Source: Mesorhizobium australicum (lineage in GTDB: Bacteria; Pseudomonadota; Alphaproteobacteria; Rhizobiales; Rhizobiaceae). Taken from it: 64,000 nt of DNA. The stretch is from assembly GCF_900177325.1 (NCBI RefSeq), contig NZ_FXBL01000004.1:124001-188000 (forward strand), given 5' to 3'. The notes under the pieces were generated by a model. That model ran no database searches. It was not told the origin of the DNA and saw only the letters and a program-made list of their open reading frames with translations. The position numbers were made by a program, and so were the translations under genes. The stretch's first letter is position 1, and each line of letters begins with the position of its first letter. Shown here one piece after another: positions 35,176 through 60,490 of this stretch.

Positions 35176-35418
35176 GGCGCGACCTCGCAACGTTCAAAAC
35201 ACCAATAGAATTCAAAGGCATGGGCTTTCGGCGCACGGTGCGCGAAAAACCTGCAACGTGCGGAACGCGCCAAAAACCGAAGCAAAAACAACCGACCGAT
35301 TGGCGCGCAACGTGCGCCCTTTTATCTCGCCATCCTTCGGTCGTGGCGCCTGCCACAACCCCCCACGCCCTCCATGATGCGCCGGGGTACGACAGGATGC
35401 GAATGCGCCGGGATGCCT
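35176..35418 (-). other. Candidate oriT region with an RP4/Ti-like nic sequence
   Basis: The gene-free gap between the relaxase and the transglycosylase. On the minus strand CATCCTGT (35399-35392) fits the YATCCTG/Y nic consensus of RP4- and Ti-type oriTs. Eight bases before the presumed nick ends an imperfect inverted repeat GAAGGC-N8-GCATTC, the spacing used for relaxosome-protein binding in RP4. Further features are GCGCAC-G-GTGCGC near 35229 and two copies of CAACGTGCG. No ORF with family resemblance is present. Confidence 0.5.
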
Positions 35419-43152: not shown

Positions 43153-43374
43153 TTGAAGCGCAAGTCACCCAATCTGGGCGTGAGCCTTCCGAAATGCCGC
43201 TGCTGCGGCAACTACTGGCGGCCGCCCCAAGGCGTGAACGCCAGTGCTGCCTACTGTAAGCGGTGCGCAAAGGAGCGCCGCGCGGTAGCCACAGCCAGCC
43301 TGGGTCTTAAGCGGATTACCTCTGCGGACCTCAGCGGCCATTTCCTGCTGCCCCGGCGCTTCCGACTGAGCTAG
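43153..43374 (+). CDS. Small zinc-ribbon-like protein (TTG start)
   Basis: 73 residues from a TTG codon preceded by GGGGAGGT at an ideal distance, which argues for translation despite the rare start. The sequence has CRCCGNYW and YCKRCAKER, a C-x2-C...C-x2-C pattern that could bind one zinc. It is convergent with the kinase gene and their stop codons overlap by three bases. No family is recognised; a role with DNA, RNA or the kinase is possible but unproven. Confidence 0.55.
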   Translation: MKRKSPNLGVSLPKCRCCGNYWRPPQGVNASAAYCKRCAKERRAVATASLGLKRITSADLSGHFLLPRRFRLS

Positions 43375-44402
43375 GCTTCGAAGAATGCGCGCAACTCAGC
43401 CATAGCCTGGGTTTGTCCGACAATGCCGTCCGATGCGCCGAGAGAACGCGAGCGTCCAGCTCCCAATGGCTCACTCCATGCGCGCCAGCGGTGCTTGCGC
43501 TGGGAGATGCGTTCCCATTCCACCTGCAACCGACGCTGCCCCTTCACCTGCTGCCATAGAACGAACTCCGGCTCAACCGTCGTGGTCCAGACGGGGTCAA
43601 TCGGCAGCGCGGCGATGCCTGTTAGGGCCTGACCCGCGCTCTGGTGCCGACCTGCGGGATTGTCGTTCAGCATCTTGCGAATGACGGTGCGCCACGCCTT
43701 CGGGATGTGGGGCAACCATCTGAGGGTATCAACGAAGCCCCCACCAGGGATTATGTGTCGGGGGTCCGGTGCTTCCTCGTACCATACCTTGCCATGCAGT
43801 AGCCGGAACAAGGTCATGCCCAGCGCCCATATGTCGGTCTTCGGGCTCGTTCCGTTGCCGTGCCAGACCTCATAGGCAATGTGATCGCTATACCCGGCTT
43901 GGGAGCCATAACCCAGGATCAGTTCGTCGGTCACCAGGCCGAAGTCACCGAGCTTCGCGACGCCCTTCGAATCCAGCAGGATATTCGCGGGCTTGATGTC
44001 GCGATGGAGCATCTCACGCGCGTGTAGAGCGCCCAGCCCAAGCAACACCTCTGTCGCCACCTTTTTGGCGGCAGGCAGAGTCATGGGCCCTTCCTCAAAC
44101 TTGGCCTGCAACGATCCGCCGGGGCAAAACTCCATACAGATGACGACACTGTTGCCACCGTCGCCTTCGACCACGTGATGCACCTGGACCACATTGCGGT
44201 GGGTTGCCTTCGAGAGGTGCTGGGCTTCGTTGAGAGAGCCGCCCTTATATTTCTCCCAGGCAGCATCGTCGTGGTGCGCCTCGCGGCTCAAAACCTTCAC
44301 CGCTACGTTCCCGTGAGCTGGGTCGGTGCCCTTGAACACCTGGCCGAAGTGCCCGTTGCCGATCCTGTCATCAATCTGGAGGCCGGAGACGTACTCTCCC
44401 AT
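43371..44402 (-). CDS. Hanks-type serine/threonine protein kinase (cargo)
   Basis: 343 residues, no membrane segment. All catalytic elements are present: GNGHFG loop at 15-20, VAVK Lys36, alphaC Glu59, HRDIKPAN with Asp135, DFG at 153-155 and DIWALG. The usual APE is AYE (176-178). The last about 70 residues are basic and end in an unfamiliar segment. The ATG overlaps the stop of the upstream gene (ATGA), so the two proteins are made together. Such a soluble kinase is not part of the conserved transfer core and is likely cargo, perhaps a defence or regulatory module. Confidence 0.88.
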   Translation of the reverse strand: MGEYVSGLQIDDRIGNGHFGQVFKGTDPAHGNVAVKVLSREAHHDDAAWEKYKGGSLNEAQHLSKATHRNVVQVHHVVEGDGGNSVVICMEFCPGGSLQAKFEEGPMTLPAAKKVATEVLLGLGALHAREMLHRDIKPANILLDSKGVAKLGDFGLVTDELILGYGSQAGYSDHIAYEVWHGNGTSPKTDIWALGMTLFRLLHGKVWYEEAPDPRHIIPGGGFVDTLRWLPHIPKAWRTVIRKMLNDNPAGRHQSAGQALTGIAALPIDPVWTTTVEPEFVLWQQVKGQRRLQVEWERISQRKHRWRAWSEPLGAGRSRSLGASDGIVGQTQAMAELRAFFEA

Positions 44403-46935: not shown

Positions 46936-47982
46936 TCACCCTTCCATGAAACGGCTGACGTCTTCGGGGTGAAGCTGTTCCTTCAGTGTCGCCCGGAGGG
47001 CATCGACGCCGCGCCAGCGCAGATCCTCGTTGAAGTCCCCGGCGACCGGCGACACCGCAATTGCCTCGATCCCGACGCTCGTCGCTCTGGCGATCAGGCC
47101 ATTTCTCGCGCCGTCCCCGGCCGGGTCGCGATCGCGCAGCACATAGAGCCTGCGCAGCGTCGCCGGGAACCGACAAGCGGCAAGGTGAGCGGCCGAGAGC
47201 GCCGCCAGCATCGGCATCTGGGGCAGGACCATACGGGGCGACAGCACGGTCTCGATGCCCTCCCCGGCCGCGAGCACCCGACCTGCCACCCCGAAACGGA
47301 CGGCGTGCCCGAGAAGGTCGCCCATCGCCCGCCGCGGTGTCTTGACAGGCGCCTTGCCCGAACCGTCGGGGCTGAGCCAGGTGCGGTGCGCCCCCGTCTG
47401 CCGTCCGGCGAGGTCGGTGACGGAAGCGACCATCGCCGGCCAGATCTCGGTGGGCGAATGCTCGTCGGGCCGATAATAGCAACGCGGATGGAAACGCAGG
47501 CTTGTGGTTTCGTGCAAAGCCGTAATGCCGCGATTGCGGAAATACGTCTCTACAAGCGTGCCGCCGACCGGCTGCGACATGGCGAAGAGCCGCCGTGCCG
47601 CTTCAGGCGACCCCGACGAGGCCATGCCCGGCGCCCTGCCGGTCGGCGTCCTCGTCTTGTCCGGCTCGGGATGCGGCAGAGAGAGGAAACGGCGGGCTTC
47701 CTCGGCCACGTCCTTGAAGTCGACAAGGCCGAGCGCCTCGCGGATGACGTCGAGGAGATCGCCATACTCGGCGGTTGCGGCATCGGTCCAATGCCCGGCG
47801 GCGCCGGGACCTGATTCCGGTCCGCTGAGCCGGACGAACATCGACCGGCCGGGCGTATTGCGAACGTCGCCCACCGTCCAGTAGCGGCCCTGGCGCCGTC
47901 CGTTGGACAGGTAATGGCGGCAGACCGCCTCGGCCTGCCGGCCGAGACGGATCGCCAGTTCGGAGGCGTCGTGACGGGCCAT
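46936..47982 (-). CDS. Toprim-domain primase/DUF7146-like protein
   Basis: 348 residues. The N-terminal DUF7146-like part (VGDVRNTPGRSMFVRLSG, GHWTDAATAEYGDLLDVI) is followed by a toprim fold: AAGEGIETVLS with the catalytic Glu and LRDRDPAGDGARNGL with the Asp pair. Likely a primase-like enzyme acting on transferred DNA. The ATG overlaps the stop of the decayed methylase/helicase gene upstream (ATGA). Confidence 0.87.
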   Translation of the reverse strand: MARHDASELAIRLGRQAEAVCRHYLSNGRRQGRYWTVGDVRNTPGRSMFVRLSGPESGPGAAGHWTDAATAEYGDLLDVIREALGLVDFKDVAEEARRFLSLPHPEPDKTRTPTGRAPGMASSGSPEAARRLFAMSQPVGGTLVETYFRNRGITALHETTSLRFHPRCYYRPDEHSPTEIWPAMVASVTDLAGRQTGAHRTWLSPDGSGKAPVKTPRRAMGDLLGHAVRFGVAGRVLAAGEGIETVLSPRMVLPQMPMLAALSAAHLAACRFPATLRRLYVLRDRDPAGDGARNGLIARATSVGIEAIAVSPVAGDFNEDLRWRGVDALRATLKEQLHPEDVSRFMEG

Positions 47983-49426
47983 CAGGCAGCCTCCCGCTCG
48001 CCGATACGCTCAACCGGCCAGCGGTCGAGCAGTCTGGCGAGCACGGCCGGGCCGTTCGCATCAACCGGTACGAACATGCGCAGCTTCCACGAGATGATTT
48101 CGTGGAAGAGGCCATAGGCGGTGAGGCGCTCCCGCATCGTGTCGGTGAAACCCGACAGCTCGATGCGGTTGGCACCCATCACGCGGGTCCGGCGAAGCTG
48201 GAGGCCCTCGGAAAGATCGAGGATCGTCCGGCCGTCCATCAGCGCGATGAAAGCCTCGTCCGGCGTGAGCGCGGTCGCGCCGGTCGTGGTCGCGTTGGCG
48301 GCCGAGGCCGGCGAGACCTTGCGGCCGATGATCCGCTCGCCCGCGTCGGTCTGGAGCCGATAGACGCGGGTGGACTCGTTCGGCACGCCCGCCGACGGAT
48401 CGACCGGCAGCCGGGCGGGCAGATGTTCGGCCAGCCAGCCGATCAGCGTGGCCACATCAGGCGCGACGCCGAGAGACGCGGGAAACACGGTCGGATCGTC
48501 GGCGGGCAGCTTGTCGATGACGGTGAGCCGTGTGGGAATCGTCGTGCCGTGCTTTGCATAGACCGAGCCGTCGATGGCAGCGGAGAAGACGACGCGGCCG
48601 CGCTCCTGCAGCCGGGCGAAGGCTGCTGACCAGGCCCGATTGTCGGGCGCGAAGCCGGCGCCGGTGATGGTCACCAGACGGCCGCCGGGAGCGAGACGTG
48701 CCAGCGCCGACGCGACATGGCGGAACGCGGCGTCGGCCATGCGGCCCCCGACATTCGCCATGACCGAGAACGGCGGGTTCATGAGCACGACGCTCGGGAT
48801 CGCCCGTGGATCGAGATGGTCGTCGATCTGGGCCGCGTCGAAGCACGTGACAACCAGGGCCGGAAAGAGGAGAGAAAGGAGGCCGGCGCGGTCTCGGCAA
48901 GCTCGTTGAGCGCGAGCGAGCCGCCAGCGATCTCGCCGAAGATGGCGAGAAGCCCTGTGCCGGCCGAAGGCTCCAGCACACGATCCGCCGGGGTGATGGC
49001 GGCGGCCGTTGCGGCGGCCAAGGCCAGCGGGATCGGCGTGGAGAACTGCTGGAAGGTCTGCGCCTCCTCGGAACGGCGCGTGTGTGTCGGCAGAAGACCG
49101 GTGATTTTCGACAGGGCGGAAAGCCGTGCAGCCGGAGATGCGGCTTTACGGAAAAGCGCACGTCCGTATTTACGGAGAAACAGGACGGTCGCGGCCTCGC
49201 TGGCGTCATAGGCCGTCTTCCAGTCCCAGGCGCCGGTCGCGTCGGACGTACCGAAGGCCGACTCCATCGCGCTGCGCAGAGTGGCGGCGTCAACGCGCTG
49301 ACCGCGCTCAAGATGGGGAAGGAGCAACTGCGCCGCCGCGAAGATCGCGGAAGAGGTGTCGGGATCGTGGACGGCCGGAAGCAACGCGGCAGCGGGCGCC
49401 GCTGCGGACGCGGAAATCATGTTCAT
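47982..49426 (-). pseudogene. Strawberry-notch-type methylase-helicase gene with internal deletion and frameshift
   Basis: Two frames together give the N-terminal methylase part (ADRVLEPSAGTGLLAIF, then LMNPPFSVMANVGG) and directly after LPVDPSAGVP the C-terminal domain of the same family (NESTRVYRLQTDAGERIIG to the end). In full-length relatives about 1,000 residues with the helicase lie between these parts, so it is missing here (junction near 48,389). In addition the frame breaks near 48,885-48,892: LNELAET should continue RAGLLSLLFPALVV but needs one extra base. Start ATG at 49426. Either a dead gene or a mini-version plus a sequencing error. Confidence 0.75.
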
Positions 49427-49436
49427 GGGGAGGACC

Positions 49437-49526
49437 TCGGGAGAGCGGGACAGGATCGAGCCGCGCAGCGCTCTCTTTCAACCGCACCGGCTCACATCCG
49501 TCCCGGCCGCTCTCTCCCTCTGACGC
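49437..49526 (-). ncRNA. radC-motif-like structured leader upstream of the methylase pseudogene
   Basis: The most diverged of five related leaders. On the transcribed strand it has CAGAGGGAGAGAG, then CGGGACGGAT, GGTTGAAAGAGAGC and ATCCTGTCCCG, so the outer stem (CGGGAC with GTCCCG) is kept. It lies 11 nt before the start codon. The known radC RNA motif is reported upstream of DNA methylase genes, which fits. Confidence 0.5.
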
Positions 49527-49579
49527 ATCGGCCCTGACACATCGCCGGCAAGACATGGCTCAGGGGATCAGTGGGAGGG

Positions 49580-49975
49580 TCAGGGATCGCGCGCGCCGGC
49601 GATGATCGCCTCGCCGCGAGCGACCGCCCACGAGGCTCTTTCGACCCATTCGTCCGATGACGCGCGATCCGCGAGGCGGTCCGCGACCAGCATCTTCAGG
49701 AGGCCGAGCAGGATCTCGAAATGCGCGGCCTTGCGCTGGATCGTCTCCCCGAAATGCGAGGGGACGGGAATCGGCGGGCTGGAATAGGCCGCATCAGCTC
49801 CCTCCCAGATCCCGGTGACGTAGTTCTCTCCTGCCGAGTCGTGATCGAACTTGCCGGTCGTCCATTCATCGTCCTCAACAGCCAGGCGGCAGGCGGCCGC
49901 GGGCGTATCGGCGGAGTAAGTGCGGTGCCGGTAAACCGGGAGGTGATAGGTGACCTCGATCGTGTATTCGGGCAT
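49580..49975 (-). CDS. Element protein of unknown function
   Basis: 131 residues starting MPEYTIEVTYHLPVYRHRTY; the middle is acidic (VEDDEWTTGKFDHDSAGENY) and the C-terminus helical and Ala-rich. The N-terminal strands with periodic aromatic residues resemble those of the next small protein, suggesting paralogy. CAGGAG precedes the ATG and a stem-loop leader precedes that. No known domain is recognised. Confidence 0.75.
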   Translation of the reverse strand: MPEYTIEVTYHLPVYRHRTYSADTPAAACRLAVEDDEWTTGKFDHDSAGENYVTGIWEGADAAYSSPPIPVPSHFGETIQRKAAHFEILLGLLKMLVADRLADRASSDEWVERASWAVARGEAIIAGARDP

Positions 49976-50315
49976 GAAATGGCTCCTGAAACGACAAAGC
50001 CCGGCGCGACGGCCGGGCTGGGTTGGCTGGATGTTGCGGCGGTCGAGGCGTGGGCGCCGGGTGGATGCGGTCGCTGTCGAACTCGACATCATCCGCGATG
50101 GCATTGCGACCATCGGCCGTAACGCGGTCGATGAAGACGATGATGCCTTCGCGCCGCTCATCGATGTCGATATGCTCGGGACGGGCCATCGATTCCATGG
50201 CGGTTTTCGCCTGAACCTTCGCCTTCTCGATTGCTTCGGCGTCCGAGCCGGCCTCGACGGTGAAACCGTCGTATGCGCGCATCCAGAAGCCGATCTTGAC
50301 GGTGTATTCGCTCAT
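49875..50315 (-). CDS. Element protein of unknown function, C-terminus probably abnormal
   Basis: The first about 90 residues (MSEYTVKIGFWMRAYDGFTV, then AEAIEKAKVQAKTAMESM) are well-formed and similar in style to the neighbouring protein. After DSDRIHPAPTPRP the sequence turns Pro/Arg-rich, runs through a terminator-like hairpin and continues 101 nt into the next gene. That suggests the natural stop near 50,040 has been lost. GAGG lies before the ATG at 50315. Function unknown. Confidence 0.6.
   Translation of the reverse strand: MSEYTVKIGFWMRAYDGFTVEAGSDAEAIEKAKVQAKTAMESMARPEHIDIDERREGIIVFIDRVTADGRNAIADDVEFDSDRIHPAPTPRPPQHPANPARPSRRALSFQEPFHARIHDRGHLSPPGLPAPHLLRRYARGRLPPGC
49983..50018 (-). 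promoter_or_regulatory. Hairpin plus TCGTTTCAGGAG leader, copy 1
   Basis: GCCCGGC-cgtcgc-GCCGGGC followed by TTTGTCGTTTCAGGAG on the transcribed strand, immediately before the 49,975 gene. The same hairpin-(T)TTCGTTTCAGGAG arrangement occurs at 52209-52249 and 52773-52793. It could terminate the upstream gene while supplying the SD of the next, or act as an attenuator. Confidence 0.5.
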
Positions 50316-50325
50316 GGCTCGCACC

Positions 50326-50874
50326 TCACGCGGCTTGGAACAGCGCAGCGCGAGCAGCCTGCCGCCAGGAGGGATCGACCAGCCGGCCCTCGAGTGCGCT
50401 CGCGCGGAAGCGAAGGCTGCGAGCGGTGCTATGGTTGTCCCAACCGGCCTCGAACGAGGCTTCGCCGCGCAACTTACTGGCCTTTTCCACGATCAGCCGG
50501 GCTTCGCCGTCGGAAGCGACGGGTTCGCACCACCTGACGCTGCGCCGCCACGGCTCGCCTGCGAGAACCAGGCAGTGCTCGCCGTCGCGGACGATGAACA
50601 GACGGGGCAGGAAGCCGAGAGCACCATCCTCGCCGGTGGCGATCTCGTCCTGTCGAGCCAAGCGTTCGACGCAGGCGATGGCCTCGGCGAGCGATGCGCA
50701 TTGCGCCAGCTCGACCGTGTGCGGGACGGTATAAGAGCCGTAGATCGGATCGTCTTCCGGGTACTCGATTTCGCCAAGGCAATCGACTCGCAGCGGGAGC
50801 TTGCGAGCGGCGGTAAGGGTGGCGATGGCCCGCGCAACCGGAGCGGCGGCGGATATAAGAGTGAACGTGTCCAT
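50326..50874 (-). CDS. Element protein of unknown function
   Basis: 182 residues starting MDTFTLISAAAPVARAIATL. IEYPEDDPIYGSYTVPHTVELA and FIVRDGEHCLVLAGEPWRRS suggest a mixed alpha/beta domain, and the C-terminus is helical. Found in the accessory region with other short, structured-leader genes. GGAGA is the SD. No recognised domain. Confidence 0.75.
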   Translation of the reverse strand: MDTFTLISAAAPVARAIATLTAARKLPLRVDCLGEIEYPEDDPIYGSYTVPHTVELAQCASLAEAIACVERLARQDEIATGEDGALGFLPRLFIVRDGEHCLVLAGEPWRRSVRWCEPVASDGEARLIVEKASKLRGEASFEAGWDNHSTARSLRFRASALEGRLVDPSWRQAARAALFQAA

Positions 50875-50880
50875 TTCGGT

Positions 50881-50960
50881 TTCTCCGTGACAGGCGACGG
50901 AAGCCTCTCTTCCGACCCTCATCCCGTCACGGCCAAACCGGCCGGCCTCTCACTCTCGGC
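50881..50960 (-). ncRNA. radC-motif-like structured leader of the 50,874 gene
   Basis: Outer stem CCGTGACGGG with CCTGTCACGG (one G-U pair) encloses an inner hairpin GTCGGAAG-AGAGG-CTTCCGTC. The 5' side begins GAGAGTGAGAGG. Base changes relative to the parB and ardC copies keep pairing, so the structure is conserved rather than the sequence. The 3' arm runs into the SD (CACGGAGA). Confidence 0.65.
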
Positions 50961-51065
50961 TCCGCCCCCCTTTACCGCTGCGGGTGGCGGGCCTGATCCC
51001 GCCGCACGCGATCGCGGCCCGGATGCGCTGTGCGTTCCGGGCCGGGTGAGTGAGGCGCATTCGCC

Positions 51066-51230
51066 TCACTGCCAGGGATCGAGTTCCAGTTTCACCATTT
51101 CCTCGTCGCCATCGAATTCATCGGCGGGCATGGCGCCGTGGGTTCCATCGCCAGCCTGGAACACGACGATCGAGACCATCAGCGTGGCGGCGAGGCTGGC
51201 GGCGAAGGCGGTGGCATCTGCGTAGGACAT
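51066..51230 (-). CDS. Small single-span membrane protein
   Basis: 54 residues: MSYADATAFAASLAATLMVS with VVFQAG forms one membrane segment, followed by an acidic tail (EFDGDEEMVKLELDPWQ). AGGAG is ten bases upstream of the ATG. It carries the CCA-loop leader hairpin also seen before ssb. Function unknown; the consistent leader supports it being a real gene. Confidence 0.6.
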   Translation of the reverse strand: MSYADATAFAASLAATLMVSIVVFQAGDGTHGAMPADEFDGDEEMVKLELDPWQ

Positions 51231-51655
51231 GGGTTCCGGCTCCTGTCTTGGAGGCGGGGGACCATCCCCCGCGCGACAGGCGCCCGAAGTGTCTGACCGG
51301 ATCTGCAATCACCCTCGCGCGTTCGGGCAAGCCCCGAATCCGCAAGGGCGGCACGCTCGCGTAAGCCGACCCCTTCGGGGTTGATTGACGAAGAGACGGT
51401 TCGGACCAAGGTTTGCGAATGGAAGCGGGGGTGGTGCCTGGTCTCTGGCTGGAAGCCGGCACCCGTCGCAGGTGCCGCTGCCTTCGCCGCCAGCTTTCCC
51501 CCATGCCGGTCTTCTCGCAACGCTGTTACAGGCGGCGGAACCCGTCCCCGGAAACCACGATGGCGGCCCATGCGCGCTGGATATCGACTCTGGCAGGCTC
51601 GATGTCTGTGCTCAGCACGACATGGCCTGGCACGGCCAAACGGGCCGATACGGGA
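51231..51655 (-). promoter_or_regulatory. Long leader/intergenic region with CCA-loop hairpin
   Basis: No coding signal is seen. GCGGGGGA-TGG-TCCCCCGC (51272-51254) is a perfect 8-bp stem 23 nt before the 51,230 start, sharing GGGATGGTCCC with the ssb leader. Downstream in plus coordinates are CACCCTCGCGC (near 51,310), a small CCCC-TTCG-GGG stem near 51,373, and CGGCACC-N7-GGTGCCG (51457-51477), which may end the gene at 51,656. Confidence 0.45.
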
Positions 51656-51936
51656 TCAGCCCCAAAGTCCGTCCGCGATCTCGCGGGCGGTCATGGCGCG
51701 GGCCCTCTGCAGCAGATCGTCACCGCAGGTATCGATATGGCCGTAGAACCGCGCCCGGCCGCCGTTCGCGTTCCAGTCGGCATAGCAGCAGTATTCACGG
51801 GCATCGAGCCCAAAGCCCCGCGCTGCTTCGGCTCCACGACGATGGTGATGCCACCACGGGTTTCCTCCCACCGAAGCGAGCGCTCCGCGGGAGGATTGCG
51901 GCGGTCCTCGGCGAAGATCTCATTCACCGTCATCAT
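51656..51936 (-). pseudogene. Small element gene broken by a frameshift at a G run
   Basis: The start MMTVNEIFAEDRRNPPAERS with ITIVVEPKQRG is in one frame, preceded by an ideal GGAGGGA SD. The end (GFGLDAREYCCYADWNANGG through MTAREIADGLWG) is in another. One additional G in the GGGG run near 51,820 would join them as a 93-residue protein. Function unknown. Same type of lesion as at 40,732. Confidence 0.7.
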
Positions 51937-52201
51937 GCTGTCCCTCCGTCTTCGCTTTCGGGATAAAGCCGGTTGGATCGTCAGGATCAGGCGGCAGGTA
52001 GGCGTCATAGGGATTGCCGTCTGCAAGATGGCCGAACGGCGTCATGACGTAATCGCCGTCCTCCGCACGCCCCACGGCGCACAGGACGTAGCGCGGCTCG
52101 CGGGTGACGGCATCCATGCACTCCATGAGTGCGAGATTGCCGTCACCTGCCGCGCGTAGCAGCGTGTTGAAGTTGGTGCGCGCGTAGTCGGGAATGGCCA
52201 T
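51920..52201 (-). CDS. DUF6117-like small protein
   Basis: 93 residues, MAIPDYARTNFNTLLRAAGD, ALMECMDAVTREPRYVLCAV, and an acidic C-terminus with FGHLADGNPYDAYLPPD. It resembles the DUF6117 proteins common beside parB on such elements; function unknown. Its last 17 bases overlap the start region of the next small gene. The SD (CAGGAG) is part of the second hairpin-leader unit. Confidence 0.75.
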   Translation of the reverse strand: MAIPDYARTNFNTLLRAAGDGNLALMECMDAVTREPRYVLCAVGRAEDGDYVMTPFGHLADGNPYDAYLPPDPDDPTGFIPKAKTEGQHDDGE

Positions 52202-52208
52202 GGGTTTC

Positions 52209-52249
52209 TCCTGAAACGAAAATGGCCCGCGGTCATTCGACGGCGGGCC
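52209..52249 (-). promoter_or_regulatory. Hairpin plus TTTTCGTTTCAGGAG leader, copy 2
   Basis: GGCCCGC-N12-GCGGGCC followed by ATTTTCGTTTCAGGAG and then, six bases on, the ATG at 52,201. The T-rich stretch after the stem makes it a plausible terminator for the 52,749 gene, whose stop lies 24 nt before it. Confidence 0.55.
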
Positions 52250-52272
52250 AGGTGAGCGGGAATGAGCGATGG

Positions 52273-52749
52273 TCAGGCGGCGGCGCGTCCCTCGACGACA
52301 TCGGCGCCGACTTCATCGGCCGTGACGTCCTCAAGCCGGGCGCGGCTGTATCCCGCTTTTGCCAGCCAGAGTTCGGCGGCCTCACGGTTCTCCGCCAGAT
52401 GCAGCAGTTCGACGTTATCGCCGATATCCTGCACGACGCGGACCTGACCGACCCTCGGGCGCTCGATGACCCGGAAGGTCAGGTCGCTGTCGATGCCATA
52501 GGTGCGCATGACGGTGACGAGGATGATGCCGCCCTGACCGAAATTGCCTTCATGCAGTGTGAAGCATGGCGGGCTTGTGTAGGTCGGGCGCTCACGCGCG
52601 GGCTCCTTGCGCACAAGGCGGCCGACGCCGTTGCGGCGCTCCCAGGCCGCCAGCTTCTTCGTGAAGCGGGCGGGCGGCTTGGGCTCTCCGTCAGCATAGG
52701 CAATCAGCGAGCCGAGCGGAGCTATGTCGAGGACAAGAGAAGCGGACAT
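52273..52749 (-). CDS. Element protein of unknown function
   Basis: 158 residues starting MSASLVLDIAPLGSLIAYAD. The first 60 residues are basic (FTKKLAAWERRNGVGRL), and GGIILVTVMRTYGIDSDLTF plus a helical, acidic end follow. Located directly downstream of parB behind a terminator-like hairpin. No domain recognised; orthologues are expected in related elements at the same place. Confidence 0.72.
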   Translation of the reverse strand: MSASLVLDIAPLGSLIAYADGEPKPPARFTKKLAAWERRNGVGRLVRKEPARERPTYTSPPCFTLHEGNFGQGGIILVTVMRTYGIDSDLTFRVIERPRVGQVRVVQDIGDNVELLHLAENREAAELWLAKAGYSRARLEDVTADEVGADVVEGRAAA

Positions 52750-52772
52750 TGTTGGTCTCCTGAAACGAAAAC

Positions 52773-52793
52773 GGCCCGGCGGGATGCCGGGCC
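52773..52793 (-). terminator. Hairpin plus GTTTTCGTTTCAGGAG leader, copy 3 (end of parB)
   Basis: GGCCCGGC-ATCCC-GCCGGGCC is a perfect 8-bp stem followed by GTTTTCGTTTCAGGAG and the start of the 52,749 gene. It lies 60 nt after the parB stop. Terminator for parB and leader of the next gene at the same time. Confidence 0.6.
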
Positions 52794-52852
52794 TTGCGGA
52801 TGGAGGATGAAGAAGAAAGATGGGGCGACCGACGCCGCCCCGCAGATGCGTG

Positions 52853-54991
52853 TCACTCGGCGGCGACGAGAACCGCCGGCTCGTCGTCGGCGTCACTCGC
52901 ATCGTCCTCGTCGTCGCCGGCGAGGAAGTTGGGCAGCGCCTCGTCCTCCTCGTCGTTCTCGGCCGAGAGTTCCGCCGGCTCCTCCGCGACCAGGCGCAGC
53001 GGCTCGGGAAGCCAGCCGGTGTCGGCCAGCAGGCGTTCGGCCTCCCTGGCCATGTCGCCCTTCTTGAGATGGTCGATCAGCTCGGCGGCGCGCTCGCCCG
53101 CCCCCTCGCGCACGGCTTCGAGGATGTGAGGCTTGGTGACGCGGCCGAGATAATTCTCGACCGTCGGCTTCCAGCCTGCTTCCACCATGTCGAGTTCGAC
53201 AGCGCGCGCGAGCCGATCCGCCTCGGCGAGACGCTGCTGGATGCCGTGCACGGTGACGGTGCCGCCACCGTAGCGATCGGCCTTCTCGTAGAGGGCGTTG
53301 ACCCCGAAAGCAGCGCAATGCGCGAAGAGCGCCGCCTGCTCGGTGCCTTCGAGAGAGACGAGCCAATCCCAGAGGGAGGTCTCGTCGGTTGGCATGCGCG
53401 CCTCCCATGCCTTGTGGCGTTCCTCGATGGCCTGCGCCGCCGGGGTATCCTTCAAGCCGGGCGCTTGCAGGGAGAATCCGGTGTTGCGCACCGAGACTTC
53501 CATGGCCGGGCTGTAGGAGATGTAGCGGGAGAAGACGTCCCGGCAGAATTTGTGCAGCACGGCCAGGAACGCGACGGACGGATTGTTGGCCAGCCTGTCG
53601 CGCAGTGCAAGGGTACGCTCGGCCGTCAGTTCCGTCACCAGGCGATCCGGCAGCGGCTTGATGACGTCGTCATCCGTATCCGTCGGCTGGCTGCCGATGG
53701 TGATCACGGTGCGCTGAGCCGAAGGATCGACATCGGCGTCACCGTGGCCGATGCCGGCGTCACCACCGGTCGAGGAGCCGTTGCCCTCGACGGCGGCTTC
53801 CGGCTCATCCTCGGGACGGACATAGCCGCGATCGACGACGAGTTCGCCGTCCCGGCCGATGCTGAGGAAGACGCCGGCGCGGGCGATCTCGTCCGGATCG
53901 AAGCTGACGGGACGGTTCTCGAAGGCACTGAGGGCGGCCTCGATCTCCGCGAGACGCTGATCCACCTCTTCGGGCAGATCGTCGGCCTCCGCGTATTCCG
54001 ATTCGAGATCGTCATACTCGTTGCGGAGTGCCTCGCGAGCCGCCCGTTCCTCTTCGGTGAGGTCCTGCGTCGTGCCGGTCAGCTTGCGCAGGCCGTTGGC
54101 ATGGCCGTAGGGAAGTTCAACCGAAGCGTCGATCCACTTCCAGCCCTGGGCGGCAATCTCGTCGGCCATCGCCTTCAGCTTCTCGTCAACCAGGCGGTCG
54201 AGCAGGGAGACGTCCTGCAGCCAGCCGTCATTGTCGTGGGCAAAGAGATCGCGAAGCATCGCGCCGCCCGCAGCCTCATAGGCTTCGAGGCCGATGAAAC
54301 GGGCACGCTTGTCGGATGCCGGGACCGTGGTTTCGGTCAGCATGCGCCGGATTTGCCACGGCTCCTTCTGCCAGGAGTTGCGGATGCTCTCCCAGACCTG
54401 TTCCTGACGGGCATGGTCGGGATTGACGGTGAAAGCCATCAACATCTCCAGCGTCATGCCGTCCTCGGCATAGACGTCGAGCAGCACGGGAGAGACGGCG
54501 GCAAGGCGAAGCCGCTGCCTGACGACCTGAACCGTGGTGAAGAAGGCCGCCGCGATCTCCTCTTCGGTCATGCCCTTGTTGCGCATGTCGAGGAAGGCGC
54601 GGAACTGGTCGAGGGGATGCAGCGCCACGCGCTGGGTGTTCTCGGCCAGGCTGTCGTCCTCTGCGAGGATATTTGTTGAGGGATCGCGAACGACGCAGGG
54701 CACCGGCGCGGTCTTGGCAAGACGCTTCTGCTTCACGAGGATCGCCAGGGCCTGATAGCGGCGGCCGCCGGCCGGCACCTCGAACATGCCGGTCTCGTTG
54801 CCCTCGGCATCGAGCACGGGGCGGACATTGAGGCTCTGGAGAAGCGTGCCGCGGCGGGCGATATCCTCGGCCAGTTCCTCGACCGAAACGCCGGCCTTTA
54901 CGCGCCGAACATTCGACTGGCTGAGAACGAGCTTGTTGAAGGGGATGTCGCGCGAGGGCGACAGAGTGAGTTTCTGAGCGGCAGTAGCCAT
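52853..54991 (-). CDS. parB: ParB-like nuclease-domain protein
   Basis: 712 residues. The N-terminal ParB/Srx fold is clear: NKLVLSQSNVRR, VPAGGRRYQALAIL (box II type), DSLAENTQRVALHPLDQFRAF; an HTH-like helix follows (GMTEEEIAAAFFTTVQVVRQ). The long central part and the extremely acidic C-terminus (DDEDDASDADDEP) are typical of the large ParB proteins on ICEs and plasmids, distinct from the parA partner. Possible roles are DNA nicking, partition or regulation. It has a radC-type leader. Confidence 0.88.
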   Translation of the reverse strand: MATAAQKLTLSPSRDIPFNKLVLSQSNVRRVKAGVSVEELAEDIARRGTLLQSLNVRPVLDAEGNETGMFEVPAGGRRYQALAILVKQKRLAKTAPVPCVVRDPSTNILAEDDSLAENTQRVALHPLDQFRAFLDMRNKGMTEEEIAAAFFTTVQVVRQRLRLAAVSPVLLDVYAEDGMTLEMLMAFTVNPDHARQEQVWESIRNSWQKEPWQIRRMLTETTVPASDKRARFIGLEAYEAAGGAMLRDLFAHDNDGWLQDVSLLDRLVDEKLKAMADEIAAQGWKWIDASVELPYGHANGLRKLTGTTQDLTEEERAAREALRNEYDDLESEYAEADDLPEEVDQRLAEIEAALSAFENRPVSFDPDEIARAGVFLSIGRDGELVVDRGYVRPEDEPEAAVEGNGSSTGGDAGIGHGDADVDPSAQRTVITIGSQPTDTDDDVIKPLPDRLVTELTAERTLALRDRLANNPSVAFLAVLHKFCRDVFSRYISYSPAMEVSVRNTGFSLQAPGLKDTPAAQAIEERHKAWEARMPTDETSLWDWLVSLEGTEQAALFAHCAAFGVNALYEKADRYGGGTVTVHGIQQRLAEADRLARAVELDMVEAGWKPTVENYLGRVTKPHILEAVREGAGERAAELIDHLKKGDMAREAERLLADTGWLPEPLRLVAEEPAELSAENDEEDEALPNFLAGDDEDDASDADDEPAVLVAAE

Positions 54992-54999
54992 CGGGGTAG

Positions 55000-55078
55000 T
55001 CTCCGCGACGGGCGCCGAGAGCCTCTCTCTCCGCTTTCAACCCGTCGCGAAAATCCCCTCCCTCCTCTGACTCTCCGG
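55000..55078 (-). ncRNA. radC-motif-like structured leader of parB
   Basis: Outer stem CGCGACGGG with CCCGTCGCG is a perfect 9-bp match; the inner hairpin is GCGGAGAG-AGAGG-CTCTCGGC with one mismatch. Between the outer 5' arm and inner stem is TTGAAA, conserved in the radC copy. The element starts with GAGAGTCAGAGG and ends in CGGAGA, the SD region. Confidence 0.7.
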
Positions 55079-55170
55079 GTAGCGCGGTCGGCTTCCTGCG
55101 ACAGGAAGTCACCACTCCGGGAAACCGCGGGCGGATGAAGCCGAGCACCGTCAGGCCATCCGGCAAGCAA

Positions 55171-55659
55171 TCAGATTTCGCCTCGGGCGCGCAGACTGAC
55201 CTCCCGGCCGATACCGACGATGATATGGTCATGCAGCGTCAGGCCCATGACCTTGCAGCCTTTCTGGATCTCCTTGGTCATCGCCATGTCGGCTGACGAC
55301 GGTTCAGGATCACCCGCAGGATGATTGTGGACGATGATCAGCGCTGTCGCGTTGAGAGCCAGAGCCCGCCTCAGAACTTCACGGGGATAGACGGGGACGT
55401 GATCGACCGTGCCGATGGAGAGGCACTCATCCGAGATGAGCCGGTTCTTCTTGTCCAGATAGAGGACATGAAACCGCTCCACTTCGCCGCGGATGGTGAG
55501 CGCGCAATAGTCCAGCACCGCCTGCCAGGACGAGAGGACCGGGTTCTGGTTGAGATAGCGCAGCAGGATCTGGCGCGCCTCATAGATGACAACTTGCTCC
55601 TGGGCCGAGAACCGGAGAGGCTGCGGCTCGAAACCAAAAGTCTTCTGATGTCGGGTCAT
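55171..55659 (-). CDS. radC: RadC-family JAB/MPN domain protein
   Basis: 162 residues with the metalloprotease-like motif complete: GEVERFHVLYLD (Glu59/61) and HNHPAGDPEPSSAD (H111, H113, D124). Element-borne RadC proteins lack the N-terminal UPF0758 helix-hairpin-helix, as here. Long regarded as DNA-repair related, but the true activity is unclear. Its leader is one of the five radC-motif copies. Confidence 0.92.
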   Translation of the reverse strand: MTRHQKTFGFEPQPLRFSAQEQVVIYEARQILLRYLNQNPVLSSWQAVLDYCALTIRGEVERFHVLYLDKKNRLISDECLSIGTVDHVPVYPREVLRRALALNATALIIVHNHPAGDPEPSSADMAMTKEIQKGCKVMGLTLHDHIIVGIGREVSLRARGEI

Positions 55660-55665
55660 AGTTAC

Positions 55666-55745
55666 GTCTCCCGACGGGCAGCAGGCCCTGTGCCAAAGCT
55701 TTCAACCCGTCACGAGGCGAGGCGCCGCCCTCGTCGTCTGAGAGA
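55666..55745 (-). ncRNA. radC-motif-like structured leader of radC
   Basis: TGACGGG pairs with CCCGTCG as a shorter outer stem around GTTGAAAGC and an inner GGC-ACAGG-GCC. The 5' part begins TCTCAGACGACGAGG. This is the gene context that gave the published motif its name. It ends next to CGGGAGA, the SD region. Confidence 0.6.
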
Positions 55746-55778
55746 GCGGCGCAGGATCGCAAAACGCACAGCCGGAAA

Positions 55779-56183
55779 TCAGGCTTTCTGGGTTTCCGTA
55801 TCGGGGGGAGTGAGGTTGAGCGCGGCAGCGCTGCGGGCGCGTGCGTAAAGAATGCGCTCGGCCGCACGTATGCTGCCAGCCTCTCTTGCCGCCTCGGCCC
55901 AGACCGAGATCGGAAAATCCCCGGTAAAGAGCAGGTCCCGCTCGATCCCTATGCCGAAGGGCAATCGGATGGACTCCATTTCCTCCAGCGAAAAGCTGCC
56001 AAGTTCCGGATAGCCGAGATCGGCGAGACCGAACATAATGTCGCCGTCCGGATCCAGTTCGGTCGCGAGCCAGACGCCTTCGCCGAGCGGATTGAAGAAT
56101 TTCACAACCGGCACATGGTCGACGTCGCGCTGACGGCCATTCGCGAGCAGGCGTTGGCGCAGATCGGGGGGCAGGAGGATCAT
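55779..56183 (-). CDS. DUF2958 family protein
   Basis: 134 residues: MILLPPDLRQRLLANG, VPVVKFFNPLGEGVWLATEL, GDIMFGLADLGYPELGSFSL and DLLFTGDFPISVWAEAA are the DUF2958 signatures. The family occurs beside ardC on mobile elements; function unknown. It overlaps the ardC stop by four bases. Confidence 0.9.
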   Translation of the reverse strand: MILLPPDLRQRLLANGRQRDVDHVPVVKFFNPLGEGVWLATELDPDGDIMFGLADLGYPELGSFSLEEMESIRLPFGIGIERDLLFTGDFPISVWAEAAREAGSIRAAERILYARARSAAALNLTPPDTETQKA

Positions 56184-57139
56184 GCCGCCCTCCTGTCGAT
56201 GGTGCCGGCCTCGGCGGCGGAACCGTCCGCATCCGGAAGGAAGGACAAGATCCAGTCCGCCGCCCTGCTGGCCTGCGAAGCGGCACGGACGATGGCGCGG
56301 GAATCCTCGCGCATGACGTCGAGCCAGGAGCCGATGTAATCCGCATGGCGCACGGTCGGGACGATGCCGACCGAAGCGCAGCAGAAAGCCGAAATTTGTT
56401 CGGCAATCATTTCTTCGAAGGCGTATTTCTTCGAGCCGAAGGAGCCGGAAAGATCGCGATTGAGCCGGCTGTGATGACCGCTGGCGTGGCCGATTTCGTG
56501 AAGCGCGGTCCGGTGCCAGTTGATCGGCTCGTAGTAGGCTTGCGGCGGCGGCACGACCACATAGTCGTGGGCTGGAACGTAAAACGCCTTGTCACCGCCG
56601 ATACGGAAGTCGATGCCGGTCGCCTTGATGAGCGCCTCGACCATCGGCTCGATCACGCCGGGTGGCGGCGGCGGGATGGTGACGGCGATATCGTCGGGCA
56701 GTCCTTCGCATTGCGCCGTGTTGAACACGGTGAACCGTTTGAGAAACGGGATGGCCTGCGCCTCCTCGCCGGTCTCGCGGGCGCGCTTCTTCTCGTCCTC
56801 GGGAACGAAGCGATCGGCATAGACGACGGTAGTGCCGCGTTCGCCCTTGCGCACATTGCCGCCAAAGGAAAGAGCCTGCCGGAACGTCAGCCAGCCCTGG
56901 CCGGGAAAGCCGTGCTGGACGACGGCGCCCCAGAGAAGAAGGATGTTGATGCCGCTGTAGCTTCGGCCCGTGCTGGCATTCCTGGGCAGGCCGAGCGGGA
57001 CTTTCGCCCCGGACCTACCCCAGGGCTGCACCCAGGGCACGCGGCCAGCTTCCAGCTCGGCGATGATCTTGTTGGTAATTTCGTCGTACAGGTTCGTCCG
57101 GTCCGAGCCGGCGCGTGAGGTGCGATCATATCTGGACAT
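56180..57139 (-). CDS. ardC: ArdC-like antirestriction/ssDNA-binding metalloprotease-fold protein
   Basis: 319 residues. The N-terminal ssDNA-binding ArdC domain (NLYDEITNKIIAELEAG, VPWVQPW, SYSGINILLLW) is followed by a zincin-like domain with HEIGHASGH. ArdC proteins protect incoming single-stranded DNA from restriction during conjugation. First gene of the minus-strand block; a radC-type leader and a roughly 350-bp gap lie upstream, the likely promoter position. Confidence 0.9.
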   Translation of the reverse strand: MSRYDRTSRAGSDRTNLYDEITNKIIAELEAGRVPWVQPWGRSGAKVPLGLPRNASTGRSYSGINILLLWGAVVQHGFPGQGWLTFRQALSFGGNVRKGERGTTVVYADRFVPEDEKKRARETGEEAQAIPFLKRFTVFNTAQCEGLPDDIAVTIPPPPPGVIEPMVEALIKATGIDFRIGGDKAFYVPAHDYVVVPPPQAYYEPINWHRTALHEIGHASGHHSRLNRDLSGSFGSKKYAFEEMIAEQISAFCCASVGIVPTVRHADYIGSWLDVMREDSRAIVRAASQASRAADWILSFLPDADGSAAEAGTIDRRAA

Positions 57140-57144
57140 CGCGG

Positions 57145-57224
57145 TTCTCCGCGACGGGCGCCGGAGACCTCTTCCCCGGCCCTCAACCCGTCACGGCAAA
57201 CCCCGTCCGCACTCTTACTCTCGC
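57145..57224 (-). ncRNA. radC-motif-like structured leader of ardC
   Basis: Outer stem CCGTGACGGG with CCCGTCGCGG (G-U allowed) and inner hairpin GCCGGGGA-AGAGG-TCTCCGGC. Starts GAGAGTAAGAGTG and ends CGCGGAGAA, five bases before the ATG. Antirestriction genes are a reported context of the motif. Confidence 0.68.
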
Positions 57225-57486
57225 CGGGCCGAGGGCCCGCAAAGGCGCAGAACCGTAAAAGCGCAAAGCCGCGTTCCAGACATCTGCCGACAGCAGCAGC
57301 ACCATGCGTCAGGGATCGACGCCCACAGGGTGAAGACCGCGCATGCGGGGGCTTCAGCGCCAGCCGAGAGTCCGGCCCGAAGGGCGACGCCCAACTTCCA
57401 AGTCATCCGAGTCTCGCGACATACCTCGGCCATCGCTGAAGCTGCTCAACCTCGTAAAGTCAAATGGATTGCAGGCGATTGCCTGA
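57225..57486. other. Gene-free gap between ardC and abiEii
   Basis: No supported ORF is found here. It contains AAAGGCGCAGAACC and AAAAGCGCAAAGCC (near 57,245-57,275), two loosely similar A-rich words, and must hold the ardC promoter. I see no clear terminator for abiEii at its left end. Confidence 0.3.
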
Positions 57487-58302
57487 CTACGATGCACCCT
57501 TCCACGGCTCGCCCGGCAGGCGTTCGATCAGCGCGGACTGAACCTTCGCCGCCGCCGACTCGAAATCCCAAGCGTAGCCGTTGGCCAGCAAGGGGCCGAT
57601 GTCAGCGGTGAACTGCGGATCGCTCCGCTTTTGGTGCATGTTCTGCTCGAACAGGGCACGGGTGACGGTATGGCCGCCATGCTCCATGTAGGAGCTGAAG
57701 GTCTGGACGATGCGCTCGGGGTCGGCGTCGTTCTGCTCGAGCGCCACGGCCAGGTCGAAGAGGTCACGACCTTTCTTGCGCTGGTACAGCGCGCGCAGCT
57801 TGGTGCCGAGCAGTTCGTCCAGCTCGTAGGTCGCGATCTCGCAGGCCCCTTCGAACCAGCGCGACGATACGCTGAAGGGAAGCTTCTTGAATCCGTGAAC
57901 CGCGAAATGCTCACGCGAATTGATCTCGACCTTCAGCTTCATGGCGATGGGCGGCGCGTCTTCGGATGCGAAACGATAGACGAAGGTCACGCGGCCCTCC
58001 GTCTGCTTCCAACGCGGGGCGCCGAGCCACGGGTCGAGCACCGACCGCAGCGCGTCCATCACCGGCCCGGCAGCTTCCGCCCGCATCTGCACGAGGTCGA
58101 TGTCCTCGGAATAGCGTGCGGCCGGTTTGAGATAGAGTTTGTACAGCGCCGTCCCGCCGCGAAAGGCCAGCGCCTCGGCGAGGACTGGATGTGAGAATAT
58201 CGCGACCAGCGCGCGGCAGATGACGAGATCCTGCTCGATCTGGATGTCCTGCACCCAGGGCGCCTGCGCCCGCCAATCGGTAATGTAGTCGCGCGGGATC
58301 AC
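57487..58302 (-). CDS. AbiEii-type nucleotidyltransferase toxin
   Basis: 271 residues from a GTG that overlaps the antitoxin stop (GTGA). Nucleotidyltransferase motifs of the AbiEii/DUF1814 family are present: RGGTALYKLYL (48 onward), RYSEDIDLV (63 onward, with the metal-binding Asp pair) and KLKVEINSREHF, later GTKLRALYQRKKGRDLFDLA. Such toxins inactivate tRNA or other targets to abort phage infection or hold the element. An ORF extension upstream would overlap the antitoxin gene and is rejected. Confidence 0.85.
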   Translation of the reverse strand: MIPRDYITDWRAQAPWVQDIQIEQDLVICRALVAIFSHPVLAEALAFRGGTALYKLYLKPAARYSEDIDLVQMRAEAAGPVMDALRSVLDPWLGAPRWKQTEGRVTFVYRFASEDAPPIAMKLKVEINSREHFAVHGFKKLPFSVSSRWFEGACEIATYELDELLGTKLRALYQRKKGRDLFDLAVALEQNDADPERIVQTFSSYMEHGGHTVTRALFEQNMHQKRSDPQFTADIGPLLANGYAWDFESAAAKVQSALIERLPGEPWKGAS

Positions 58303-59099
58303 AGTTCGGCCTCCACGTCGGCGTTGACGAGAAGTTTCCACCCGTCATCCCGCATGGCGCCCTCGGCCGAAGCTATGGGCAAGAGCGGAGCCGTCTGCCG
58401 TGCGTGCGTGCGCACATAGGATTTCAGCGGCGCGGCGAGCGCATGGGCATCAACCTTTTCGAGGAGATAGCCAAGACGCTGCGCCCAGGGGATTGGCGCC
58501 ATTTGCGCCGCCGCGACCAGTTTGCTGGCGTCGAGGTTCTCGGCGAGTTCGCCCAGAACCGTTGCCACCTGGTCGAGGCCGCCGACGTGATCGTAGTAGC
58601 CGACAATGTCGACCGCCGTTGCCTCAGGGGTGGAGACAAGCACGGTGCCGCGCGGCGTGTTGAAGGTCTGAACGGGGATCCGTGCGATATCCTTGCGCAC
58701 CACGAAGGCGACGCGCACCGCGCCGCATGCAAGCGGGCGGCGGCTCTTCGCGACCATCACCTGCGCTTCCTGCGGGCGATGATGGGCAGCGCCATGATAC
58801 TGCGCTGCGGAGAGAAGTCCCATATAATAGGGCTGGCCTAGCCTCTGCATGAGCGCGGGGATGAACTGGTCCGCGGGCAGAGACCCGAGGGAGCGGTATT
58901 CCGGGGGAATGATGACGTAAAAGCCTCGCGCCGGCGAGGCGATCAATCCCTGCTTCGCGAGGCGGTTTAGGGCGAGTTTGGTGGCGTCGGGTGAAACTCC
59001 CAGCGCCTCCCGCGCGTCGCCGGAACTGAAATGATATCGCCCGCCGCTGGCAAGGCGGGCGATATAGTCCCGGGCGTGAATTCGCGATTCTGATTTCAT
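58299..59099 (-). CDS. AbiEi-type antitoxin with winged HTH
   Basis: 266 residues: an N-terminal winged helix (SGDAREALGVSPDATKLALN, KQGLIASPARGFYVIIPPEY) and the AbiEi C-terminal antitoxin domain (QRLGQPYYMGLLSAAQYHGA, then STPEATAVDIVGYYDHVGGL). Known AbiEi proteins repress their own operon by binding inverted repeats. An inverted repeat is present one base before the ATG at 59099; an alternative GTG two codons upstream lies within it. Confidence 0.87.
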   Translation of the reverse strand: MKSESRIHARDYIARLASGGRYHFSSGDAREALGVSPDATKLALNRLAKQGLIASPARGFYVIIPPEYRSLGSLPADQFIPALMQRLGQPYYMGLLSAAQYHGAAHHRPQEAQVMVAKSRRPLACGAVRVAFVVRKDIARIPVQTFNTPRGTVLVSTPEATAVDIVGYYDHVGGLDQVATVLGELAENLDASKLVAAAQMAPIPWAQRLGYLLEKVDAHALAAPLKSYVRTHARQTAPLLPIASAEGAMRDDGWKLLVNADVEAEL

Positions 59100-59100
59100 G

Positions 59101-59133
59101 TGCACAAAGTATCATTTTCTAATACCTTGTGCA
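59101..59133. promoter_or_regulatory. Autoregulatory operator of the abiE pair
   Basis: TGCACAAAGTAT-CATTTTCTA-ATACCTTGTGCA: 12-bp arms with one mismatch and a nine-base AT-rich spacer, immediately upstream of the antitoxin start. This fits the AbiEi repressor mode. The AT-rich centre suggests that the promoter overlaps it. Confidence 0.6.
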
Positions 59134-59300
59134 ATTGATTCGAGAACGACCACGCCGCCGGCAAAATACCAAGCCCCCATCCCTCGTGTCTCAAGAGCGG
59201 GCCAACCCTAGTTCCGCCGAAACTGCGGCTGCATGTGACCTGCCACTGAGTTTTTCCTCCACCTGGAGTTAGAGTCCGGCCTCGATTGAAGGACGGACAG

Positions 59301-59567
59301 ATGAAGCGGAAGCGGTTTACGGAAGAGCAGATCATCGCGGTTCTGCGCGAGCACGAGGCGGGTGCGAAGGCGGGCGACCTGGCCCGCAAGCACGGGGTTT
59401 CGGAGGCGACGCTGTATAACTGGAAGGCGAAGTATGGCGGCATGGACGTGTCCGACGCCAAACGCCTGAAGGCCCTGGAAGACGAGAACGCGAAGCTGAA
59501 GAAGCTGCTCGCCGACCAGATGCTGGAAGCCTCGGCCCTTCGCGAGCTGCTGTCAAAAAAATGGTAG
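59301..59567 (+). CDS. IS3-family OrfA (HTH transposase subunit)
   Basis: 88 residues beginning [23 protein letters not shown] in [20 protein letters not shown], then a leucine-zipper-like segment ([18 protein letters not shown]). It binds the IS ends. The A7 run followed by TGG at its end provides a -1 frameshift site to make the OrfAB fusion transposase. ATG at 59301 follows AAGGACGG. Confidence 0.9.
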
Positions 59568-60490
59568 GGCCCGCCGCCAAGCGCGAAGCCGTCGCGCATC
59601 TGAGGTCCGCCATGGGCCTGTCGGAGCGGCGGGCCTGTTCCTTCGTCGGTGCCGATCGCAAGATGATCCGCTACCGGTCCTGCCGTCCGCCGGAGACGGA
59701 GTTGCGCGGCAAGCTGCGTGACCTCGCCAATGAACGCCGGCGTTTCGGCTATCGGCGCCTGTTCATTCTGCTGCGGCGGGAGGGTGAGCCTTCGGGGATC
59801 AACCGGATCTATCGCCTCTACCGGGAGGAAGGGCTGACAGTTCGCAAGCGCCGGGCGCGGCGACGAGCGGTGGGCACGCGAGCGCCGATCCTGGTCGAGG
59901 CGAGACCGAATGCGCGTTGGTCGTTGGACTTCGTGCACGACCAGTTCGCCTGCGGTCGGCGGTTCCGCGTGCTCAACATCGTCGACGACGTGACGCGCGA
60001 ATGCCTGGCCGCGATCCCCGACACGTCGATCTCCGGTCGTCGGGTGGCACGTGAGCTGACCGATCTGATCGGCCGTCGCGGCAGGCCGGCCATGATCGTT
60101 TCCGACCACGGCACGGAGTTCACCTCGAACGCCATCCTCGCCTGGTCGAAGGACCATCGTGTCGAGTGGCACTACATCGCGCCGGGAAAGCCGATGCAGA
60201 ACGGCTATGTCGAGAGCTTCAACGGGCGGATGCGGGACGAGCTGCTGAACGAGAGCCTGTTCTTCGGCATCGACCATGCGCGCAGCGCCATCGCCGAATG
60301 GAGGCAGGACTTCAACACCGCGAGGCCACACTCCTCGCTCGGCTACCAGACCCCGGCGGCCTTCGCCGGAACCCTCGCCGCAACCGCCTCCGACGCTTCG
60401 CTCGATAAGGGCTTCGCGTCTCCACCGGTTGCTCAACCCGCGCCCTACGGCGTAACAGAAACGGCCGAGGCTCTAATCGCCACTGGATGA
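59561..60490 (+). CDS. IS3-family OrfB (DDE integrase domain)
   Basis: 309 residues in the -1 frame relative to OrfA. DDE catalytic residues are in [20 protein letters not shown] and [20 protein letters not shown]; the C-terminus ends near the right repeat. Normally produced as an OrfAB fusion through frameshifting. The sequence between orfA stop and the shared ATGG agrees with that mechanism. Confidence 0.92.

Follow-up and report, generated by a model that had tools for sequence, protein, structure and literature searches.

Quick and brief expression of anti-restriction and maintenance genes after a conjugative element enters a new host has so far been explained by repressor-controlled promoters and by promoters in single-stranded DNA (ssDNA). 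Zygotic induction is the subject of work on RP4 (PMC7314908), and leading-region anti-defence islands are reported to hold a gene set similar to the one considered here (PMC11541004). On the Bacillus plasmid pLS20, five operons, that of ardC among them, have EGeRS1-like sequences in front of them, and how expression is switched on at entry is described there as still open (PMC8708921). Here, we analyzed a 64,000-nucleotide stretch of Mesorhizobium australicum (contig NZ_FXBL01000004.1, positions 124,001 to 188,000; hereafter, the window), in which a conjugative element carries five structured leaders directly 5' of start codons, all on the minus strand. A preliminary description had taken all five for a single two-stem leader that matches the published radC RNA motif.

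Sequence comparisons point to a cis-acting RNA leader family that probably sets the translation of establishment genes in alphaproteobacterial conjugative elements, and the leader looks like an undescribed, shared translation switch. The label of establishment genes was given because of the gene families concerned (ArdC, ArdB, RadC, ParB-like, and methylase/helicase) and of the work on leading regions and pLS20. The idea of one common leader held for ardC, radC, parB, and the 50,874 gene, whose leaders were assigned to one family (type I), but not for the methylase gene, whose leader was assigned to another (type II); the window element thus has four copies of the former and one of the latter. 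In type I, the sequences show the mRNA strand to fold as a long two-part hairpin, in which a GAGAGUGAGAG box is followed by a 10-bp outer stem (CCGUGACGGG / CCCGUCGCGG in the ardC leader), a UUGA-type bulge on the 5' side, and an inner stem closed by the five-base loop AGAGG. The outer 3' arm enters the Shine-Dalgarno (SD) sequence GGAG at its foot and holds its first bases, mostly 7 to 9 nt before the start codon, in agreement with the earlier remark that this arm adjoins the SD. Two unpaired purine motifs, the 5' box and the AGAGG apical loop, are conserved along with the UUGA bulge.

The ardC leader (57137-57223 with its start codon; 95.0 bits with R1, a covariance model built from the four type I leaders of the window) has its box at 57222-57212, the outer 5' arm at 57196-57187, the inner 5' arm at 57180-57173, the AGAGG loop at 57172-57168, the inner 3' arm at 57167-57160, the outer 3' arm at 57158-57149, the SD GGAG at 57150-57147, and the ATG at 57139-57137; it precedes ardC itself (56180-57139; ArdcN and MPTase-PolyVal domains by Pfam). 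The radC leader (55657-55740; 70.9 bits with R1, 54.6 with R2, a refined version of that model) is degenerate, with CAGACGACGAG as its box and ACAGG as its loop, while the other three share the box GAGAGUnAGAG; radC (PF04002) lies at 55171-55659. The leader at 54989-55075 (R1, 90.8 bits; R2, 89.3 bits) stands before a parB-like gene (52853-54991; 712 amino acids) whose matches to ParB_N (E 0.0014) and TIGR00180 (E 4e-8) both fall below cut-off, and that at 50872-50958 (R1, 89.5 bits) before the 50,874 gene (50326-50874), the 182-amino-acid product of which matched no family in Pfam, NCBIfam, or PADLOC. The parB leader is closest (87 to 89%) to leaders in the Mesorhizobium plasmids H41 and H42, one of which stands under an ArdC annotation; leaders may therefore sometimes move between genes.

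Compensatory changes in the helices, of the kind that marks a structured RNA, were found in type I. In an alignment of 66 leaders made with MAFFT without any structure given (A4; 66 of the 70 distinct rows of the model-fitted alignment A3, leaving out three truncated rows and L024:1501-1586), RNAalifold recovered both helices, with kept two-sided changes in 10 of 13 pairs. For 14 named pairs in the same alignment, 95.4% of cells were paired and 11 pairs had two-sided changes; covariation was 0.357, compared with a shuffled value of 0.228 +/- 0.009 (none of the 500 shuffles reached the observed values on any of the five measures) and at most 0.154 when the structure was slid along the alignment. 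The earlier claim that differences between copies retain pairing is thereby borne out for type I. The model-fitted alignments gave 96.4% paired with two-sided change in 15 of 18 pairs for A3 and 90.5% of cells paired with four of five measures exceeding shuffles for A5 (101 distinct rows). G-U cells exceeded A-C cells (111:15 in the structure-free alignment, 153:18 in A3, and 251:10 in A5 minus its three outermost pairs), and the mRNA-sense strand is therefore the strand selected to fold, although these ratios are inflated by the collection of copies with models that score G-U above A-C. Unpaired bases were kept as well, with one base at 82 to 100% in A4 columns 3-6, 9-12, and 55-59.

Alignments A3 and A5 jointly contain 165 distinct leaders of at least 80 nt, in which the relation of the leader to the ribosome-binding site (RBS) was followed. 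All had an SD-like word, 7 to 9 nt from the start in 158, 10 nt in 3, and 2 nt in 4, and the start codon was ATG in 164 and GTG in 1, in part by construction, as the model contains both SD and start. The first two G's of the SD were paired in nearly all leaders (A5 pairs 28/95 and 29/94 in 99 and 97 of 100 rows). In an ungapped profile of 162 sequences, the conserved part opens with the box, some 85 nt 5' of the last base of the start codon, with 1.1 to 1.6 bits at most box positions; 5' of it, no position from -150 to -10 exceeded 0.36 bit and the last nine had 0.12 to 0.52, a profile that would miss a promoter at variable distance.

Type I holds this constant position ahead of the start codons of unrelated genes. 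Behind the 165 leaders stood 60 ParB-like genes, 37 of the 50,874 family, 32 ArdC, 15 DUF932-like, and 13 RadC, with the DUF932 (E 0.003) and ParB_N (E 0.0014) labels below Pfam cut-offs; the rest were two PAPS-reductase-like genes (by eye; a family with a weak PADLOC match to SspD), two of a small open reading frame (ORF) family, and four single cases, one with an AlpA match, one whose beginning resembles that of DUF2958 (by eye), and two whose frames are very short. By blastp, seven clusters of downstream genes had two or more leaders. Identity between leaders was 76% for the same gene at different loci, 61% for different genes at one locus, and 63% where neither was shared; we therefore ascribe the persistence of the shared motif to selection and not to recent copying, and the leaders have evidently long travelled with their genes and retained it.

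The four window leaders, all of them training sequences, scored E 2e-13 to 3e-24 with the family models, and relatives outside the training set reached about 1e-22 (R1, genomes of the class). In nine plasmid loci chosen by DNA similarity to the window region, R1 found another 21 leaders (E <= 2e-9). Thirteen R1 sites at E <= 0.002 were found in the genome of M. australicum itself (4 in the window, 2 at 449-451 kb of contig C4, 3 on C2, and 4 on C3), and R2 added a fourth site on C2 (E 0.0012). Type I was present in 27 of 385 class genomes, this one included (R1), and R2 matched 34 of 398 phylum genomes, each of the same class or closer, a sample whose share outside the class is not specified. 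A strict DNA pattern retrieved 81 stretches from genome contigs, 80 of which (L148 was left out) gave 139 R2 matches; per-gene leader counts lean toward leaders containing that pattern. From the names in their titles, we take these stretches to be alphaproteobacterial (Carideicomes was checked), except for one Enemella record. That leader lies in a 10.9-kb contig titled Enemella evansiae (Actinomycetota), either through contamination or through an unusual transfer. Sequences similar to the parB leader alone occurred in 106 plasmid records, whereas viral contigs had no exact match to the pattern and phage records no blastn match to the parB leader. At the gathering threshold, the type I leader of the window and of eight of the nine plasmid loci had no match among the Rfam 15 covariance models. 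No description of the leader was found in the titles and abstracts, as far as shown, of the literature searched, a coverage with subscription papers mostly outside it.

Other genes of these elements bear a second architecture, which likewise has a GAG-rich 5' box and a GAGAG loop. The type II leader of the window (49424-49530; 86.3 bits with R3, a covariance model from 43 type II leaders, this copy included) received only partial R1 and R2 matches of 8 to 15 bits (E 0.04 at best) and has a GAG-rich 5' box, a GAGAG-type loop, and CGCUCUC just 5' of the SD. It precedes a helicase/methylase gene remnant of about 1.4 kb in two frames (47982-49426; ORFs 48779-49426 and 47982-48788), longer relatives of which span 4.3 kb in the locus L005 (AAA_34, Helicase_C_4, and a weak MTS match) and a 4.5-kb mechanical ORF in L149, a second element of the same genome. 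In the 43 distinct copies that stood before orthologs of this gene, the GAG-rich 5' box is followed by a central hairpin whose loop is of the GAGAGAGAG type, and in most of them CGCUCUC adjoins the SD on its 5' side. R3 found the other type II copies of this genome in L149, L151, and L150, and matched 13 of 289 class genomes, every one of which belongs to the 27 type I carriers. Beyond the window, 14 of 17 R3 places were followed by an open frame resembling the start of the helicase/methylase (by eye), one stood before ArdB/KlcA (L169, PF03230), one before RadC (L170, PF04002), and one (L165) had no clear gene. The 3' segment of type II can pair with the apical loop (37 of the 43 copies have 7 or 8 such pairs; 97% of cells paired, almost invariant), or alternatively with the 5' box (79.7% of cells), and both at once are impossible; the choice between them is not fixed by the alignment because there is too little variation. 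At many type II leaders (L069, L075, L076, L078, and others), a terminator-like hairpin with a T-run (GGGGCGCTTTTTT) lies some 20 nt 5' of the box, so that a promoter would have hardly any space between the two.

In the mechanism that we propose, the hairpin would keep ribosomes away, and a single trans-acting factor, either an element-encoded protein or a class-wide host factor, would recognize the GAG motifs and alter the fold; such a factor is postulated because unpaired GAG motifs are conserved in both architectures. Anti-restriction, ParB-like, RadC, DUF932-like, and helicase/methylase genes might thus be switched together, and their expression would probably be kept low in settled donors and raised once a recipient has been entered. 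More specifically, and only tentatively, the GAGAG box and GAGAG loop of the two architectures could make up a single RNA code that many entry genes of conjugative elements across Alphaproteobacteria share; its reader would be one factor, which, by being absent or in another state in the fresh recipient, turns them all on at translation, and zygotic induction would then take place without transcriptional repressors. The pairing of the type II CUCUC with either the 5' box or the apical loop would make a two-state switch. The concerted control of translation at DNA entry that the preliminary description had suggested therefore stands as far as one leader is shared by DNA-entry genes, while the control itself is what we infer. 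A short leader with strong covariation offers a testable, RNA-level answer to how entry genes are switched, and it may serve to flag genes without a known function, the 50,874 family among them, as likely establishment genes.

Several results weigh against such a switch, besides the inflation of the G-U ratios mentioned above. In A5, the count of pairs with two-sided change was not above shuffles (100 of 500 reached it), and the three outermost pairs, whose formation would enclose the remaining SD bases, are present in just 37 to 58 of 98 to 100 rows. The drop in SD accessibility was real but modest, with a mean unpaired value of 0.21 for the 165 leaders vs 0.28 for a control set of 65 other genes from seven plasmid loci (p = 0.004, one-sided; another 18 control genes had no SD-like word), and the start codon was hardly less accessible (0.42 vs 0.44). 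For type II, RNAalifold gave 20 pairs, 5 of them two-sided, on 20 of the 43 leaders and a different set of 13 pairs on all 43. A search for a dedicated antisense RNA directed at the box yielded no candidate in the M. australicum genome, as CTCTYMCTCTC had 9 matches, 4 of them the leaders' own boxes, against 18 for the reversed control. The gene at 52,273 was considered as the regulator and set aside as too narrow in distribution, since tblastn found it in only seven loci, the window included.

Other readings account for parts of these data. The leader might instead block expression from upstream transcription until (anti)termination relieves it at entry, like EGeRS1 of pLS20; EGeRS1-B is reported to have shown no promoter and, in its native orientation, to have blocked reporter expression from an upstream promoter (PMC8708921). 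The low conservation 5' of the box in the ungapped register and the terminator-like hairpins with T-runs near several genes of these elements fit such a block. We nonetheless consider it unlikely, given that a transcriptional role would not need the SD spacing and that SD and start codon come after the type I hairpin, with at least four T's between them in only 13 of 165 leaders. A passive leader, with a hairpin that shields the mRNA or adjusts the level of constitutive translation and involves neither a switch nor a trans-acting factor, would suit the strong hairpins near the SD and the lack of a regulator among those considered (the gene at 52,273 and antisense RNA). Stability alone would require neither unpaired bases conserved over several orders and seven gene clusters nor another architecture that carries similar motifs, and this reading is quite improbable in our judgment. 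The gene set, which resembles the leading-region anti-defence islands where Frpo promoters are reported (PMC11541004), would be compatible with an ssDNA promoter of that kind, yet there the transferred strand must be the template, whereas the G-U excess (111:15) places selection for pairing on the sense strand. The hairpin also overlaps SD and start, and inspection by eye, rather than a scan, revealed no conserved -35/-10-like pair in it. An Frpo-type promoter is in our view very improbable.

The identity with the Rfam radC motif (RF01754), proposed in the preliminary description, has in its favor the gene neighborhood given there for that motif, and we now give it almost no weight. With relaxed filters, the RF01754 model had no match over 49000-58500 of the window up to E = 10, and cmscan gave no match at the gathering threshold (40 bits) in the window or in eight of the nine plasmid loci. 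The M. australicum genome also had none, which is weak evidence alone because 14 control genomes lacked it as well; it is cmscan together with a side-by-side comparison that leads us to reject the identity for both types. Genuine copies, which the model found in 4 of 299 phylum genomes, all of one genus, have a 149-position consensus with CCCAGG-AGCC and GAUCUUCAAGG, and differ from the leaders in length, sequence, and fold. Conversely, R1 on seven RF01754 loci gave four matches, the best of 10.7 bits and none on the RNA itself. The idea that RF01754, in distinction to type I, is not fused to a start codon was dropped, as a mechanical ORF begins at the last bases of the motif in four of the seven loci.

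Elsewhere in the window, a relaxase-like ORF was recognized by eye at 33436-35190, and a nic-like pattern occurred 2 times vs 1.09 expected. A third recurrent leader, in which a GC-rich hairpin and a T-run are followed by (C)GTTTCAGGAG, or a similar sequence, adjoining the start codon, was seen on the minus strand 5' of 49976, 52201, and 52751-52755, as well as at L004 10286 and 11536, L009 10462, and L002 9807; it resembles an intrinsic terminator laid over an RBS. At 51232-51300 (minus strand), a hairpin (CCTGTC...GACAGGAG) would sequester an SD-like word that lies 5' of a potential start codon near 51232. AbiEi/AbiEii-like genes at 57487-59105 (by eye) adjoin an apparent IS3-type insertion, two overlapping transposase-like ORFs at 59286-60490, and a protein-kinase-like gene at 43371-44402 has PADLOC matches to mad6 and PD-T4-6.

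RBS hairpin operators, known from translational repression, bury the SD in a hairpin and keep conserved unpaired recognition bases. Type I likewise has its SD in a hairpin and conserved unpaired bases; it differs in that types I and II stand on many unrelated genes, in two architectures with a similar motif, and in that the candidate regulator is only postulated. RF01754 is also a candidate cis-regulatory RNA of Proteobacteria, entered as RNA "Y," cis-reg "y," and switch "?" in a list of 104 motifs published in 2010 (PMC2864571), but it comprises several separate stems over its 149 positions, has other conserved sequence, and was confined to one genus among the 299 genomes sampled; the position of the start codon is no clean separator between the two. 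Frpo and ssi elements are reported as structured elements 5' of leading-region genes such as those for SSB and anti-restriction (PMC11541004, PMC8708921), and Frpo is an ssDNA promoter with -35/-10 sequences, whereas type I appears to be selected in the sense strand and has its SD in the arm. The closest analogue in kind is, by this comparison, EGeRS1, which is reported as repeated structured sequences just 5' of the RBS of several establishment operons, including ardC, on one element, with no constitutive promoter found in the one tested (PMC8708921). EGeRS1 is 400 to 600 bp long, with a predicted multi-branch fold and a Gram-positive host, and the effect described for it concerns expression driven by an upstream promoter (PMC8708921), in contrast to the roughly 85 nt of type I; several copies per element are found in the window element as well, and the comparison is one of kind, not of sequence.

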